Below, piece by piece: positions 18,454 through 26,579 of a stretch of DNA of 29,354 nt; the first letter of the stretch is position 1; each line of letters starts with the position of its first letter. The position numbers and the translations under genes were made by a program. Under the pieces are notes generated by a model, which saw only the letters and a program-made list of their open reading frames with translations, made no database searches and had not been told where the DNA came from. The stretch lies in IMG/VR virus record IMGVR_UViG_3300027486_000021, positions 1 to 29,354 of that record; one strand, given 5' to 3'. The DNA comes from a virus.

Positions 18454-19253
18454 CTTTCGTATGCCATTATCACTCGTGGCTGAAAACGAACATATTCTGT
18501 TGTTTTTGCAAGGGTTGGGTCGAGTTTAGTTGCAAACACACTTTTTACGCAAACTACATCTCCCTTTTTAACCTCTGTGTTTGTCCATACATCTGGGCTT
18601 GCATAACGGGGGGTTCTAGCATTAGGCACAACTACCTCAACCCTTTGAATGTCATTGTCTACCATATGGATTGAACCAAATTTTCTTTCATTTCCAAGTA
18701 GTTTACCTATTACATATCCATTCAAACTAATTATTTCATCGCCTCTCTTGGCTGCATAAATTGATTTTTTTGAAATAGTCAAGTAAACCTTTCCGTCAAT
18801 TATGCATCCTCCCTCTCCCTCTGTAATCATCTCACGAGTAAAAGTAGCATCAAACCAAACATCGTCTCCCTCTACAGCGTCAAATTCACAGTCGTAATCC
18901 CAACCTTGATAACTAAGATCTCTTTCTGCTATTTTAACTATTTTGCCTCTCCTAACAGCTTGTTTACCTTGGATATCTTCTTTGTTTTCATCGGCTTCTC
19001 TCTGAGACTCTGCCACAATCCTGGTATATTCTTTAGCCAAAGATTTATCCTTGTATCTTGATTTTTTCATGCCATCCACAAGATCGAACATATATTGTGG
19101 GTCAACTTCTTGAATGTAGTTTTTTACCTTGTTTACAATCTTCAATTTACCTCCATTGAAATCGATTTCATCTTCTGTTAGCGAGTGAAGTTTAATAATA
19201 CACTCCCCATTTACAAGTCTCAAATTTTCTAGGTCAATCCCATTTAAGTTCAT
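18450..19253 (-). CDS. Possible co-chaperonin with two GroES-like folds in tandem (267 aa)
   Basis: The protein appears to hold two GroES (Cpn10)-like units. Unit 1 has NGECIIKL (15-22), a mobile-loop-like GGKLKIV (34-40), an insertion of about 58 residues, RRGKIVKI (101-108), VEGDDVWF (127-134) and the closing strand YLTISKKSIYAA (157-168). Unit 2 repeats the order: NGYVIGKL (178-185), VEVVVPNA (205-212), VKKGDVVCV (228-236) and EYVRFQPRVIMAY (253-265). In GroES the same elements are RVIVK, GGIVL, GEVLAVG, VKVGDIVIF and a closing segment EYLI..SDILAI. A phage GroES would work with host GroEL to fold capsid protein (as T4 gp31 does). The family is inferred from motif order only; a plain beta-barrel virion protein is the alternative. 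It overlaps both neighbours by four bases. Confidence 0.5.
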   Translation of the reverse strand: MNLNGIDLENLRLVNGECIIKLHSLTEDEIDFNGGKLKIVNKVKNYIQEVDPQYMFDLVDGMKKSRYKDKSLAKEYTRIVAESQREADENKEDIQGKQAVRRGKIVKIAERDLSYQGWDYDCEFDAVEGDDVWFDATFTREMITEGEGGCIIDGKVYLTISKKSIYAAKRGDEIISLNGYVIGKLLGNERKFGSIHMVDNDIQRVEVVVPNARTPRYASPDVWTNTEVKKGDVVCVKSVFATKLDPTLAKTTEYVRFQPRVIMAYER

Positions 19254-20068: not shown

Positions 20069-20260
20069 ATGTTTATCTGCTCAATCATACTCGTCATTAT
20101 ATCGCTTGGATTTATGATTAAAAACTCCATATATGGCTGTGGCAAAAGGTGTTATAAGACTCGAAATGAGGCAAAAGAACATTGTGATTACGATCAATAT
20201 CCATATATGTGCTGGGACTGCGAAACATGGCATATAAAAAATAATGAAGAAAACACTTGA
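20069..20260 (+). CDS. Small zinc-ribbon-like protein (63 aa, or 48 aa from a later start)
   Basis: The first 15 residues (MFICSIILVIISLGF) form a hydrophobic segment, followed by YGCGKRCYKTRNEAKEH and an end with CDYDQYPYMCWDCETWHI. The two Cys pairs (CGKRC and CWDC) and the closing WHI resemble the small phage proteins of type 'K.R..T...A........Y.C..C..WH', which are probable zinc-ribbon DNA- or RNA-binding proteins. The start is uncertain: ATG 20069 would be leaderless from the promoter at 20035-20064 and adds a membrane anchor, whereas ATG 20114 gives a plain 48-residue ribbon with a leader of about 45 bases. It is the first gene of the early block. Confidence 0.55.
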   Translation: MFICSIILVIISLGFMIKNSIYGCGKRCYKTRNEAKEHCDYDQYPYMCWDCETWHIKNNEENT

Positions 20261-20287
20261 CAGCCTCGCGTGTTTGTTTTATGTTTG
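20257..20287 (+). promoter_or_regulatory. Promoter for the structured leader RNA before the replication genes
   Basis: TTG (20257-20259), overlapping the stop codon of the preceding gene, a 20-base spacer, then TATGTTTG (20280-20287), a full match to the Bacteroidota consensus. Transcription should begin at about 20292-20295. Confidence 0.65.
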
Positions 20288-20292
20288 CTGAA

Positions 20293-20403
20293 ATATTTCA
20301 CTCCTCGTTTGCTATCGAACCACAGTAAACGAGGGTTGGAAGGTAAATGATTTGCACTTACCAATCCAAAAGCTCGCAAAGTGGTTCTTGCGAGCTTTTT
20401 TTA
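20293..20403 (+). ncRNA. Candidate structured small RNA or attenuator leader, about 110 nt
   Basis: Between a consensus promoter (20257-20287) and a strong terminator there is no open reading frame worth the name, but three stem-loops follow each other. Stem 1 pairs CCTCGTTT (20303-20310) with AAACGAGG (20327-20334), eight bp with a 16-base loop. Stem 2 pairs GGGTTGG (20333-20339) with CCAATCC (20361-20367), seven bp including one G-U, with a 21-base loop that could also fold through GGTAA/TTACC; it overlaps stem 1 by two bases. Stem 3 is the terminator. The RNA ends just before the initiator gene. It may be a regulatory small RNA or a leader that controls read-through into the replication genes. 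No known RNA family is recognised. Confidence 0.55.
20368..20403 (+). terminator. Strong intrinsic terminator just upstream of the initiator start codon
   Basis: A perfect stem of nine GC-containing pairs, AGCTCGCAA (20371-20379) with TTGCGAGCT (20388-20396), extends to twelve bp with flanking A and T runs. The loop is eight bases (20380-20387), and a run of seven T (20396-20402) follows. The ATG of the replication initiator lies five bases after the T run, so any transcript from the upstream promoters must read through it. Confidence 0.85.
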
Positions 20404-20407
20404 TTTT

Positions 20408-21097
20408 ATGAATACAGGACAAATTGTTAAGGGGAAACGCAAGCATGACTTTGCGATTATCCCAAATGAAATCTCACAATCCAAGCAGCTTACAATGGAG
20501 GAGAAGGGCATGCTTTGCTTCCTTCTTTCCCTTCCGGAGAACTGGGTTCTATACAAGAAGAATCTTTACGATCAAATGCCCGATGGTAAAAATGCGGTAG
20601 ACAGAGTGTTTAAATCCCTGCAAGAGAAGGGGTATGTTTTAAGCTGCCGTCAAGTGGATGCTACTACGAACAGAATGGTTGGTTGGAACCATATTGTATA
20701 TGACGCACCTCAACTTGGCCGAGATGCGGATTTCCCGATATCGGGTTTTCCCGATGTCGGAGATTCCCGTCAGTCGGAAAACATCGATATATATAAAGAA
20801 ACAAACATCTACAAAGAAACAAAAACATACAAATACGCATTTGAGGATTTTTGGATCGCTTACGACAAGAAGGTGGACAAAAAACAAACCCTTGCTGTAT
20901 GGAACAGACTATCTGATGAGGACCGAACCCTAGCAGTAGAAGGCATGGGGAACCATAAGAACGGGCGCGAGAAGAAGTATTGGAAGGATCCGGTGCGCTA
21001 TCTTCGCGACAGGAGGTGGGAAGACGAAACGACAACAACGAATGTAAAACAAACAAACTATAGCTATGATCCAAATGACGCAAGGAATAAATGGTAA
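20408..21097 (+). CDS. Winged-helix replication initiator (DnaD/O-like), carries origin repeats (229 aa)
   Basis: A phage replisome-organiser type protein. Residues about 1-95 hold a winged helix (FAIIPNEISQSKQLTMEEKG, then LCFLLSLPENWVLYKKNLYD and AVDRVFKSLQEKGYVL). A linker of about residues 105-145 is low in structure and covers the iteron-like repeats. The C-terminus has AFEDFWIAYDKKVDKK and YWKDPVRYLRDRRWED, a pattern usual in phage initiators that load the helicase. I start it at ATG 20408: an earlier GTG at 20381 lies inside the terminator. The helicase gene begins within its last 32 bases. As in lambda O, the initiator would bind repeats in its own gene and recruit the primase-helicase. 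Confidence 0.85.
   Translation: MNTGQIVKGKRKHDFAIIPNEISQSKQLTMEEKGMLCFLLSLPENWVLYKKNLYDQMPDGKNAVDRVFKSLQEKGYVLSCRQVDATTNRMVGWNHIVYDAPQLGRDADFPISGFPDVGDSRQSENIDIYKETNIYKETKTYKYAFEDFWIAYDKKVDKKQTLAVWNRLSDEDRTLAVEGMGNHKNGREKKYWKDPVRYLRDRRWEDETTTTNVKQTNYSYDPNDARNKW
20715..20777 (+). repeat. Four iteron-like repeats, 16-base period, inside the initiator gene
   Basis: Copies: TTGGCCGAGATGCGG (20715-20729, degenerate), TTTCCCGATATCGG (20731-20744), TTTCCCGATGTCGG (20747-20760) and ATTCCCGTCAGTCGG (20763-20777). Each carries a dyad CCGA...TCGG; in copy 2 it extends to the perfect palindrome CCCGATATCGGG (20734-20745). The 16-base period is not a multiple of three, so the repeats are conserved as DNA rather than as protein. 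Confidence 0.75.
20778..20836 (+). other. AT-rich tract next to the iterons, candidate unwinding element of the replication origin
   Basis: The stretch straight after the repeats is clearly AT-rich (cgatatatataaagaaacaa and onward) and contains two copies of ACAAAGAAACAAA-like sequence. Iterons followed by an AT-rich tract, all inside the initiator gene, is the arrangement of the lambda origin. Origin function is inferred. Confidence 0.5.
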
Positions 21098-23012
21098 GGT
21101 ATCTATCTACAAAGATTTCAACGACCTGCAAGGACACCAAATTAGTGTGCTGGGCGCACTTGAACGAATTAGGGCTGGAAAATCAAAGACACTTGTTGAG
21201 AAGGCGAGGGAAGCCAAAACCAAGAAAGAGGCGGATGAGTTAAAAAAGAAACTTCCTGCCGTTTGTTTCAGTGGTACTTTTTCCAAGAGAAAGGACTCTG
21301 AGCTGATCGAACACTCTGGATATATCGTACTTGATTTCGATAATGTGACAAATATTACCCAAAAAAGAAATGAATTGTGCGCTATAAGTTACATTACCGC
21401 AGTTTGGTTGTCTCCGTCTGGAAAAGGACTGAAGGCTTTGGTCCAAATTGAGTGGAAAACCCAACATAAGGAACACTTTGATGCCCTAATGGTGGAGATG
21501 TCCCACATTGACAAGACTGGTCGTAATGTTTCCCGTCTGTGCTTCGAGTCTTATGATCCTGAACTTTACTACAACCCAAACGCAGAGGTATACACAAGAC
21601 TGCCCGTAAAGAAGTCCGACAGAAGGCTGCCTCAACAGACAACTACAGAGACGGTTAATGACGACGACAAGATATTCCAAAACCTGCTAACGTGGATGAC
21701 ATCCAAGGGGGATGCGTTCCGTGAGGGGGAAAGGAATCACTTTGTGTTTAAATTGGCAGCAAGCTGCTGTAGGTTTGGAATGCTAGAGGATACGTGCTAT
21801 AACCTTATGATGATGCACGTCACGCCAGACTCTAGCTTCAGCCAGAAGGAGTGCCGACAAGCAATCCGTAGCGCCTACCGCGCAAATATGAATCAGTGGA
21901 ACACGGCTGAGTTTACCAAGGACCAACTGGTTACAAAGAGTAACCACACCGAGGTAAAGATTGAACTCACCGAGCAAGACCTCGAAGAGATAAGTAAGGA
22001 AGATGTAATCTACGCCGAGGAGGTAATGGAACAGGCCTCCGAGATTTACCTCAAGGGATATCAGGCAGCCATGCCACTGGGTGTTCCGTTACTAGACAAG
22101 CACTTCAAAAGAGTTAAAGGCGAATTAACAATTGTTTCCGGAATAGGAAACTATGGTAAGTCATCGTTCATGAAGTGGGAGATGATATTCCGCATGGTTA
22201 GGTTTGGAGAGAAGGTGGCAATCTTTACACCGGAGGAGTTGCCGGCAGAACAGTTCTACCACGACCTTGTAGAGATTTACTTTGGAAAAGACTGTACGCC
22301 AAGCAATTACAATAGGCCGAGTTATGATGCGTACATGAAGGTGTACAAGATGATTGGCGAACACATATTCATGGTGTACCCCAAGAACGTAAGCCCAACG
22401 CCTGATTATGTGAAGGAGGTGTTTTTGAGCATGATTATCAAACACGGAGTTGACCGTGTGATCATCGACCCATTCAACCAAATGGCGAATGACTACACTA
22501 AGGGTGGTGGACGTAGCGACAAGTACCTTGAGACCTTCCTGTCTGACTGCACCCGCTTTGCTCGTAAGAACAACGTGTACTTTGACATCGTGGTCCACCC
22601 GCACAAGATGAGAAAGGGAGACGACGGCAACTATCCATGCCCAGAGGTGTTTGACCTAGCCGATGGGGCGATGTGGAACAACAAGGCGGACAACATCATC
22701 ATTTACCACCGTCCGCTTGCCCAGACCGCACCGGAAAGTCCACTGTGTGAGTTTCACTCTAAGAAGATCCGCAGACAGAAGATTGTAGGGATCAAGGGAT
22801 TCTTTGACTTTGAACTTGTAAGGTCTACTCGCAGGTTCACATTTGAAAATGTTGACTACCTACAACAGGCCATAGACGGAAAGTATGTACAGTCTGAAAT
22901 CAAGCAGCCAACCGCAATAAAACCGAACAAGAGCTGGACAGACTCCAAGGAGGTCAAGGAATGGAATGAGGAGGCAGGACACCCGAACGGATATAAAGAG
23001 GCTTGGGAGTAA
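21066..23012 (+). CDS. Primase-helicase: BT4734/VirE-like N-terminal domain plus DnaB/Twinkle-like helicase (648 aa)
   Basis: Residues about 25-175 match the BT4734-like (VirE N-terminal) domain: VCFSGTFSKR, the acidic pair in GYIVLDFDNV (Asp 90, Asp 92) and SPSGKGLKALV. These recall the hhhDhD motif of archaeo-eukaryotic primases. Residues about 200-280 resemble a primase C-terminal helical linker. From about 335 there is a RecA-type helicase core: Walker A GIGNYGKS (359-366), FTPEEL near 390 with a candidate catalytic Glu, Walker B RVIIDPFNQM (Asp 468) and the HPHK motif (511-514). It should unwind the fork and prime synthesis in one polypeptide. The start is ATG 21066 or ATG 21075, both overlapping the initiator gene. 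Primase activity is inferred; helicase is well supported. Confidence 0.9.
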   Translation: MIQMTQGINGKVSIYKDFNDLQGHQISVLGALERIRAGKSKTLVEKAREAKTKKEADELKKKLPAVCFSGTFSKRKDSELIEHSGYIVLDFDNVTNITQKRNELCAISYITAVWLSPSGKGLKALVQIEWKTQHKEHFDALMVEMSHIDKTGRNVSRLCFESYDPELYYNPNAEVYTRLPVKKSDRRLPQQTTTETVNDDDKIFQNLLTWMTSKGDAFREGERNHFVFKLAASCCRFGMLEDTCYNLMMMHVTPDSSFSQKECRQAIRSAYRANMNQWNTAEFTKDQLVTKSNHTEVKIELTEQDLEEISKEDVIYAEEVMEQASEIYLKGYQAAMPLGVPLLDKHFKRVKGELTIVSGIGNYGKSSFMKWEMIFRMVRFGEKVAIFTPEELPAEQFYHDLVEIYFGKDCTPSNYNRPSYDAYMKVYKMIGEHIFMVYPKNVSPTPDYVKEVFLSMIIKHGVDRVIIDPFNQMANDYTKGGGRSDKYLETFLSDCTRFARKNNVYFDIVVHPHKMRKGDDGNYPCPEVFDLADGAMWNNKADNIIIYHRPLAQTAPESPLCEFHSKKIRRQKIVGIKGFFDFELVRSTRRFTFENVDYLQQAIDGKYVQSEIKQPTAIKPNKSWTDSKEVKEWNEEAGHPNGYKEAWE

Positions 23013-25513: not shown

Positions 25514-25541
25514 GCTTTTGTGGTGATACTGATTATATTTG
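25512..25541 (+). promoter_or_regulatory. Promoter for the metallophosphoesterase gene
   Basis: TTG (25512-25514), a 19-base spacer, then TATATTTG (25534-25541). The -33 element lies in the T run of the preceding terminator, so one transcript ends where the next begins. The leader to ATG 25557 is about 10 bases. Confidence 0.7.
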
Positions 25542-25556
25542 CAATATATCAACCAA

Positions 25557-26579
25557 ATGAAAAATAGCGTACAAAACTATCGCAACATCTTAAACGACAC
25601 GCGAGAACTAAGCCAAAACAAGAAGATTGAAGAGGAATGGCAAAACATCCAAACCGGAGCAACTCTTGAATCATTCAAGCGGGCATTTATGTCCTGGAAG
25701 AAAAAAAATGTACACAAAGATTCGATAAAAAAGGCTCGTATTAAACCGCAGCCAGTTCTTAATGCGTTTGAGGATATCATTAATGAGCTGATTCCCGACA
25801 GCAACCCGCTGGGTCTTCCGGACTCCAGGGAAAATCAGTACAATGCGTATAAATTTCCAACCAATCACAATGATATCCTATTTCTCACCGACATTCACGT
25901 ACCATATCACAACATTGCTGCCCTCACAGCTGCACTCAAGTACGGTATTGAAAATGAGGTCAACACAATCTACATTAACGGGGACCTCATCGACTTCTAC
26001 GCGATCAGCCGGTTCCAAAAAGACCCGCGCAAACGCGACCTCGCTTCGGAAATCTACATGGCAAGAGAATTCCTCTACACCCTGCGAAGATTGTTCCCTA
26101 CACAAGCAATATACTTCAAAGCAGGAAACCACGACATCCGCTGGGACCACTATCTGATCAACAACGCTTCAGACCTTGTGGGAATTGAAGAATTTTCTTT
26201 GGAGTCCATATTACACCTCAAGCAACTTGACATCACGTTCATCCCAGACAAGCAGCTTGTGAAGATGGGTAAATTGGTAGCCCTACACGGACACGAGTTT
26301 GGATCAAGTATGTTCAGCCCGGTAAACATTGCCCGTGGTCTTTATCTCCGCGCAAAAGACAACGCTATCTGCGGACACCACCACCAGACTTCAGAGCATA
26401 CAGAACCCAATATCAATGGAAAAGTGACTACCTGCTGGTCGGTCGCTTGCCTTTGCGAACTACATCCGGATTACATGCCAATTAACAAATTTACACATGG
26501 GTTTGCCCACGTGAAAGTGTTTGATAATGAGGAGTTTGAAGTAAACAACTATCGAATTGTGAACGGCAAAATTAAATAA
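25557..26579 (+). CDS. Calcineurin-like metallophosphoesterase (340 aa)
   Basis: All conserved blocks of the metallophosphoesterase fold are present in order: DIH (Asp 112, His 114) in FLTDIHVPYH, GDLID (142-146), GNHD (190-193), LHGHE (His 244, His 246) and GHHH (273-276). These bind two metal ions and the phosphate. The first 100 residues are a charged helical extension with no homology I recognise. Phage members of this family may be DNA exonucleases of the Mre11/SbcD type or phosphatases acting on nucleotides or RNA; substrate cannot be read from the sequence. ATG 25557 is used because the promoter's -7 element ends at 25541. It stands alone as a transcript start, with small genes following. 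Confidence 0.9.
   Translation: MKNSVQNYRNILNDTRELSQNKKIEEEWQNIQTGATLESFKRAFMSWKKKNVHKDSIKKARIKPQPVLNAFEDIINELIPDSNPLGLPDSRENQYNAYKFPTNHNDILFLTDIHVPYHNIAALTAALKYGIENEVNTIYINGDLIDFYAISRFQKDPRKRDLASEIYMAREFLYTLRRLFPTQAIYFKAGNHDIRWDHYLINNASDLVGIEEFSLESILHLKQLDITFIPDKQLVKMGKLVALHGHEFGSSMFSPVNIARGLYLRAKDNAICGHHHQTSEHTEPNINGKVTTCWSVACLCELHPDYMPINKFTHGFAHVKVFDNEEFEVNNYRIVNGKIK

Follow-up and report, generated by a model that had tools for sequence, protein, structure and literature searches.

The replication initiator gene and its iterons

The 29,354-nucleotide stretch analysed here (positions 1-29,354 of the IMG/VR virus record IMGVR_UViG_3300027486_000021; hereafter the window, to which all coordinates refer) contains a candidate phage replication origin located within the gene of its own initiator. 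The replication initiator gene (20408..21097, + strand) starts with ATG, encodes 229 amino acids and was identified from its translation, its match to phrog_270 and its homology to the Rep protein of phage TP901-1. Along its length follow one another the coding region of a putative, winged-helix-like N-terminal DNA-binding domain (20408..20707, +), four 16-base-pair (bp) iterons with the core CCGA..TCGG (20715..20778, +), an AT-rich tract that constitutes a putative unwinding element (~20779..20840, +) and the coding region of a conserved C-terminal domain (20837..21028, +). A promoter-like site and a leader RNA lie upstream, and a primase/helicase gene is found directly downstream.

The initiator protein matches the PHROG family phrog_270, 'replication initiation protein', over residues 8-219 (1.4e-17), and its C-terminal part matches phrog_9327, 'primosomal protein'. 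A tblastn search against phages returned TP901-1 Rep (4e-14) along with many initiators of staphylococcal, clostridial, Gordonia and Bacteroides phages. RepA_N (PF06970) was not matched at the N-terminus in a Pfam scan at E 0.05, and a search of solved structures with the initiator sequence yielded nothing relevant. The N-terminal domain was assigned from a weak HTH_36 match, a structure model and Foldseek; it is exchanged between relatives and is modelled as helix-helix-helix-strand-strand, with helices at residues 30-41, 50-56 and 61-74 and strands at 77-83 and 90-97. Foldseek returned general winged-helix matches only, none with E <= 0.001, the PDB matches being mostly MarR-type repressors. 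The C-terminal domain, delimited by alignment and by the phrog_9327 match, is a putative contact for the primase/helicase and stays with the backbone: in the protein alignment of the relatives, it is near-constant and attached to unlike N-terminal domains.

The iteron array thus sits between the winged-helix-like N-terminus and the conserved C-terminal domain. Direct reading confirmed the four copies that the original prediction, made from the sequence alone, had placed at 20715 (TTGGCCGAGATGCGGA), 20731 (TTTCCCGATATCGGGT), 20747 (TTTCCCGATGTCGGAG) and 20763 (ATTCCCGTCAGTCGGA) with a 16-base spacing, as well as the 12-base palindrome CCCGATATCGGG within one of them (20734-20745) and the A/T-rich stretch after the iterons. 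With a score of 0.583, the array ranks first among all four-copy 16-bp arrays in the window, and none of 500 synonymous-codon shuffles keeping the protein fixed reached this value (mean 0.351, maximum 0.490). Counting the strict pattern CCGAN(1-3)TCGG was dropped as a statistic, since the two matches observed were also reached by 16 of 100 shuffles and are not significant; the evidence is therefore carried by the periodic array and its conservation. Among relatives sharing this repeat (type A, see below), the period of 16 is kept in 17 of 18 distinct sequences. In the 18 distinct type-A 64-mers, bases 5-6 of the unit (CC) are identical in 72/72 copies and base 14 (G) in 71/72, the conserved bases falling in all three codon positions because the unit measures 16 bp.

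Selection on the iterons as DNA

Substitutions were compared pairwise over 19 distinct type-A initiator genes. Residues 103-123, encoded by the iterons, show an amino-acid difference (fraction of pairs) of 0.38, the N-terminal and C-terminal domains reaching 0.12 and 0.13; for the synonymous difference, the corresponding three values are 0.14, 0.34 and 0.36. The repeat-coding linker therefore combines about three times the amino-acid change of the flanking domains with under half their synonymous variation. The AT-rich part, with an amino-acid difference of 0.18 and a synonymous difference of 0.08, has the lowest synonymous variation of the gene, and third positions in the iteron core are 94% conserved versus 78% elsewhere (p 0.0016, uncorrected for relatedness and calculated on only 8 positions). 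As the linker amino acids vary while the synonymous sites are constrained, these comparisons show, at the level of sequence, that the iterons are under selection as DNA, in the manner of a cis element. The original prediction had argued that selection must act on the DNA and had expected relatives to display a drifting linker protein with retained repeats; both expectations are borne out by these values and by the synonymous shuffles. The linker encoded by the iterons and the AT-rich tract is moreover predicted to be disordered (predicted local distance difference test, pLDDT, below 50 for residues 104-140), as would be expected if that stretch serves mainly as DNA.

Alternatively, the repeats could have arisen through slippage or as the by-product of a linker peptide that is itself repetitive, and be devoid of any function as DNA; repeated pentapeptides such as PDVGK are indeed found in type-B relatives, whose spacing is 15 bp. 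These sister phages also limit the argument, put forward in the original prediction, that the period is not divisible by three: it is true for this gene, but the same dyad recurs in the sister phages with a 15-bp period and repeated residues are encoded. In type A, by contrast, the linker with its 16-bp spacing encodes no repeated peptide. The constrained synonymous sites, the failure of all shuffles to reproduce the array and the joint replacement of the repeats with the DNA-binding domain (see below) likewise speak against a by-product, an explanation to which we give hardly any credit.

Exchange of the DNA-binding domain together with the iterons

Relatives comprised 61 IMG/VR loci with the initiator, to which a scan seeded with the neighbouring primase added three contigs, including a new type. 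In blastn comparisons with the window, the alignment of type-B relatives breaks off at 20430 and resumes at 20810, whereas that of type-C relatives breaks off at ~20410 and resumes at ~20840. The replaced piece, about 400 bp long, corresponds to the N-terminal domain plus the repeat array, with collinear flanks. Delimited by blastn of the flanks and by near-identical pairs, the exchange cassette covers 20410..20840 (+), its borders differing slightly by pair, and is embedded in a constant backbone formed by the leader RNA, the C-terminal domain and the primase/helicase.

The clearest cases come from pairs of nearly identical loci. L187 (type D) and L195 (type B) share 96.8% identity over the 3,816 bp that precede the start codon; after a segment that cannot be aligned at all, identity resumes within the AT-rich tract, at 97.8%. 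Similarly, the sequences around the differing cassettes of L028 (type A) and L050 (type C) are 95.4% identical on one side and 95.0% on the other. When cassette type is mapped on a tree built from the 1,500 bp downstream, with 62 rows of which 52 are distinct, at least 19 changes are required, the mean for shuffled types being 27.8; recombination within this 1,500-bp stretch could inflate the number of changes, and the near-identical pairs are independent of the tree. More than one type was encountered per sample, as judged from contig names: A and B in 3300042691, A and C in 3300042561, and A and D in 3300016667. Each of the types A, B and C was found in many separate samples, its borders being the same, while type D is represented by a single contig. 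Sequence comparison thus demonstrates that the DNA-binding domain and the iterons move between phages as one cassette of ~400 bp.

Protein type and repeat type were never seen apart, each change of N-terminal domain being accompanied by a change of repeat. The type-A repeat is CCGAnnTCGG with a 16-bp spacing (17/18), and type B has the same dyad with a 15-bp spacing (11/11); the N-terminal domains of A and B are homologous (41-44% identity) and have the CCGATnTCGG dyad in common at different spacing. Types C (CCCCTGCTCA, with a period of 23 bp in 12/12 for C and C2) and D (CGACTCGCAAAATCAGAGTC, period 22 bp) have N-terminal domains that are unlike or barely similar, and unlike repeats. A finer change is found in L051, a type-C relative with an N-terminal domain 81% identical, in which the half-site is TGACC instead of TGCTC (L051 1163-1208) and three of the L051-specific residues lie in or beside the putative recognition helix (R55K, D59E and Q62V, in the numbering of the present analysis). 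L051 may therefore represent a natural specificity shift. Because domain type and repeat type change together, and in view of the half-site and helix changes of L051, we infer that the N-terminal domain reads the repeats; the earlier proposal that the winged helix binds them is supported by this co-exchange. Co-exchange also suggests that the types may be functionally distinct, in which case each initiator would work only with its own origin. The copy number of the type-B array varies among L045, L190 and L281, the peptide repeats corresponding to about 3 to 6 units.

A cassette pattern with no reader/site meaning might also result from phage mosaicism in general or from chimeric assembly. All loci are indeed metagenome contigs, type D occurs in one contig only, and other nearby blocks vary as well (18593-19130, and ~540 extra bp at 23010 in some loci). 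Against this stand the recurrence of A, B and C in many samples with the same borders and the fact that domain and iterons are never split. Mosaicism may be the mechanism of exchange, but the constancy of the borders and the matching of the pairs argue for a functional unit, and an exchange without such meaning appears improbable.

A probable replication origin within the initiator gene

We consider it very likely that the site is the replication origin of the phage, lying inside its own initiator gene, with the DNA-binding domain and iterons exchanged as a cassette; the phage origin of the original prediction is most likely the right reading of its function. The N-terminal winged-helix-like domains would bind the four-iteron array, the adjacent AT-rich tract would then open, and the C-terminal domain would recruit the phage's own primase/helicase, encoded next, while the constant leader RNA, with its terminator just before the start codon, would probably set the amount of initiator. 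Since the site lies between the reader and the replisome-recruiting domains, one exchange from the start codon to the AT-rich tract would shift origin specificity and leave the match intact, which offers a possible reason for the location of the origin inside the initiator gene.

Several observations weigh against this interpretation. The HTH_36 match is weak and below the Pfam cut-off (0.0036; 17.5 bits for a cut-off of 25), and the structure model of the initiator has low overall confidence (mean pLDDT 54.8). The dyads announced for all four copies by the original prediction are present as repeats, but those of iterons 1 and 4 are degenerate, their right half-site being displaced outward by one base, and L026 (type A) has lost copy 1. 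The AT-rich tract belongs to the top ~0.5% for 40-bp duplex instability but is not unique, as 17 other places are equally unstable, and this measure was set aside as a decisive origin test. Lastly, in four ~70-kb relatives (records treated as circles), the circular GC-skew minimum is located upstream of the C-terminal domain, at a distance of 683-1,406 bp from its start. Such a placement, 0.7-1.4 kb upstream, agrees with the skew minimum anticipated in the original prediction, but gene direction reverses at the same place; GC skew thus provides no independent evidence, cannot decide on the origin and was dropped as a decisive test.

The repeats could also be operators for the repression of the initiator gene or a neighbouring gene rather than an origin, as winged-helix proteins commonly bind dyads as repressors and the PDB fold matches are, as noted above, mostly of the MarR type. 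The array is nevertheless situated 300 bp inside the gene, downstream of the promoter-like site, and is followed by a constrained AT-rich tract, while the protein groups with replication initiators and precedes a primase/helicase. We thus regard operators in place of an origin as unlikely, and operator and origin roles could coexist.

Comparison with known systems

An origin inside the initiator gene is a known arrangement; what is new here is that reader and site were exchanged repeatedly across a population of phages, and that a covarying leader RNA accompanies them. In-gene iterons are found in lambda O, P22 gene 18 and phage L, each phage having its own iterons (PMC8022706), and an AT-rich tract adjoins the iterons in lambda (PMC3349717). 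The qualification of the site as 'lambda-like' in the original prediction holds for the architecture, with four tandem iterons in mid-initiator gene beside an AT-rich tract in both cases, but not for family membership: no Pfam or PHROG match to the O family was obtained, lambda is not among the listed tblastn matches, and membership of the lambda O family was rejected. The iterons also measure ~20 bp in lambda versus 16 bp here, and the helicase loader P of lambda is a separate gene, whereas here the primase/helicase gene comes next.

The nearest known relative is Rep of the Lactococcus phage TP901-1, among the HTH_36/phrog_270 initiators, whose N-terminal part is homologous. The TP901-1 rep gene (annotated 'experimental') carries 15-bp CCAGAT(GT/TC) repeats behind the DNA-binding domain, in the same place as here, and the protein reportedly binds them; its C-terminal region, in contrast, is unlike that of the window initiator. 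In PHS3, four CCGTnnACGG units follow one another with a 15-bp spacing, and phiCD418 has CCCGGAAACCGGATTT at 16 bp. Repeats of 15-16 bp in the linker behind the DNA-binding domain are thus found in TP901-1, PHS3, phiCD418, AS73P1 and the window, and in-gene repeats would seem to be a family-wide origin arrangement among these initiators. By host, the initiators with 15-16-bp repeats in this place (L063, L064, L067 and L068) are those of Lactococcus, Alistipes, Clostridioides and Pseudoalteromonas phages.

Exchanges of a comparable nature are documented outside phages. In the PLE satellites of Vibrio cholerae, the RepA_N/ori module was swapped at least twice with a constant C-terminal domain, a swapping ascribed to an origin-cutting nuclease; an ICP1 nuclease cuts PLE origins (PMC8263062). 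The PLE origin is intergenic and belongs to a satellite, whereas the putative origin described here is in-gene and belongs to a phage. Between the RepA_N plasmids pPR9 and pSK41, an exchange of ~500 bp concerned the DNA-binding domain and the in-gene origin, the incoming domain being HTH_36, and kept the C-terminal domain and the upstream control region; the corresponding linker of pSK41 is dispensable in trans (PMC5703833). While pPR9 is a single plasmid case, four types and at least 19 changes are found here in a phage population. The covariation of DNA-binding domain and repeats, against a conserved C-terminal domain and conserved flanks, is a feature shared with PLE RepA and pPR9.

When carried on plasmids, ori-lambda blocks lambda (PMC3349717, PMC4488673), which, with the cutting of PLE origins by the ICP1 nuclease, provides precedents for a pressure to change origin type. 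We tentatively propose, as a possibility that we would not yet call probable, that origin specificity is a balanced polymorphism. At least four incompatible types in one backbone, several of them per sample, would be kept diverse by enemies or rivals exploiting the common origin, such as decoy origins, satellites, origin-cutting nucleases or co-infecting phages; the position of the origin, between both halves of the initiator, would make exchange possible, and the initiator dose would be set by a new kissing-loop leader RNA that stays constant from type to type. No origin-targeting enemy was found here in limited scans for arrays outside the initiator gene. A limited scan for arrays of the type-B pattern gave 11 contigs, all of them known type-B initiator loci; in the type-C scan, among the matches listed, double matches were known type-C loci and single matches, not checked individually, were chance-like. 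The natural near-identical pairs constitute ready-made material for the study of initiator specificity, origin incompatibility and origin-directed competition: types A and B, with the same dyad at 16 and 15 bp, isolate the effect of spacing, and type C and L051 isolate a specificity shift with few protein changes.

A conserved leader RNA upstream of the initiator gene

A promoter-like site of the Bacteroidota form TTG-N20-TAnnTTTG (20257..20287, +) was recognized by pattern match and by a consensus scan, this pattern occurring 3 times in the window versus 0.47 expected; it was also seen by eye upstream in relatives. The site would drive a leader RNA and, by read-through, the initiator gene. 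Between it and the initiator start codon, the leader is conserved (20296-20407). Its hairpin 1 (20303..20334, +; loop GAACCAC at 20317-20323) has a fold z-score of -4.8 and shows covariation in 43 relatives, and an intrinsic-terminator-like hairpin detected in a terminator scan (20370..20397, +; loop GTGGTTC at 20381-20387) is followed by a T-run ending at the initiator start codon.

The two loops are complementary. In the 43 relatives, pairing in the loop-loop helix reaches 98.7% and 3 of its 7 pairs show double changes; at least four forms exist: GAACCAC/GTGGTTC, GAGCAAC/GTTGCTC, GAGTCAC/GTGACTC and GTAAGGC/GCCTTAC, the latter read by eye in L055, whose row is misaligned there. For the whole leader structure, pairing amounts to 94.3% and falls to 36-50% with slid partners, a comparison favoured by the derivation of the structure from the window's own sequence; the double changes of the loop-loop helix, however, are not produced by this derivation. 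The middle hairpin is unsupported in the alignment (75.7% paired, no double changes). All 27 pattern matches having the loop complement sit directly before this initiator gene, and cassette type has no bearing on the loop variant, of which the two main forms number 10 and 9 in type A, 4 and 6 in type B, and 5 and 5 in type C. An Rfam search gave no match at gathering thresholds, and assignment to a known RNA family was rejected. The leader is a candidate new family of regulatory RNA; in the simplest reading, it probably acts by attenuation of the initiator gene, controlling the amount of initiator, and an action in trans between RNA copies is possible.

Genomic context and likely host

The genes of the window are oriented leftward before position ~20,000 and rightward after it. 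The primase/helicase gene (21066..23012, +), identified by PF08800, phrog_18375, phrog_239 and phrog_19, lies directly downstream of the initiator gene, and the rightward block also includes a metallophosphoesterase gene (25539-26579; phrog_221, 1.7e-40). All close relatives of the window are metagenome contigs, and no host genome or prophage with the initiator gene was found in the genome contig collection searched. The host assignment consequently rests on distant phage matches and on the promoter form. Searches with the terminase and primase returned mostly Flavobacterium, Cellulophaga, Maribacter and Tenacibaculum phages, with ~22-37% identity among the matches listed, and the promoter-like site has the TAnnTTTG form, which we take to be the Bacteroidota consensus. 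On these grounds, the window probably derives from a tailed phage infecting Bacteroidota.

Beyond the cassette, a second block (18593-19130) has no alignable match in L028, L047, L050 and L054, both of its sides being aligned, and L013, L014, L039 and L051 have ~540 extra bases after the primase/helicase gene (window ~23010). L056 and L057 correspond to both ends of one 68.5-kb contig (IMGVR_UViG_3300031857_000124) with the same initiator region at each, which suggests terminal redundancy or assembly wrap-around.
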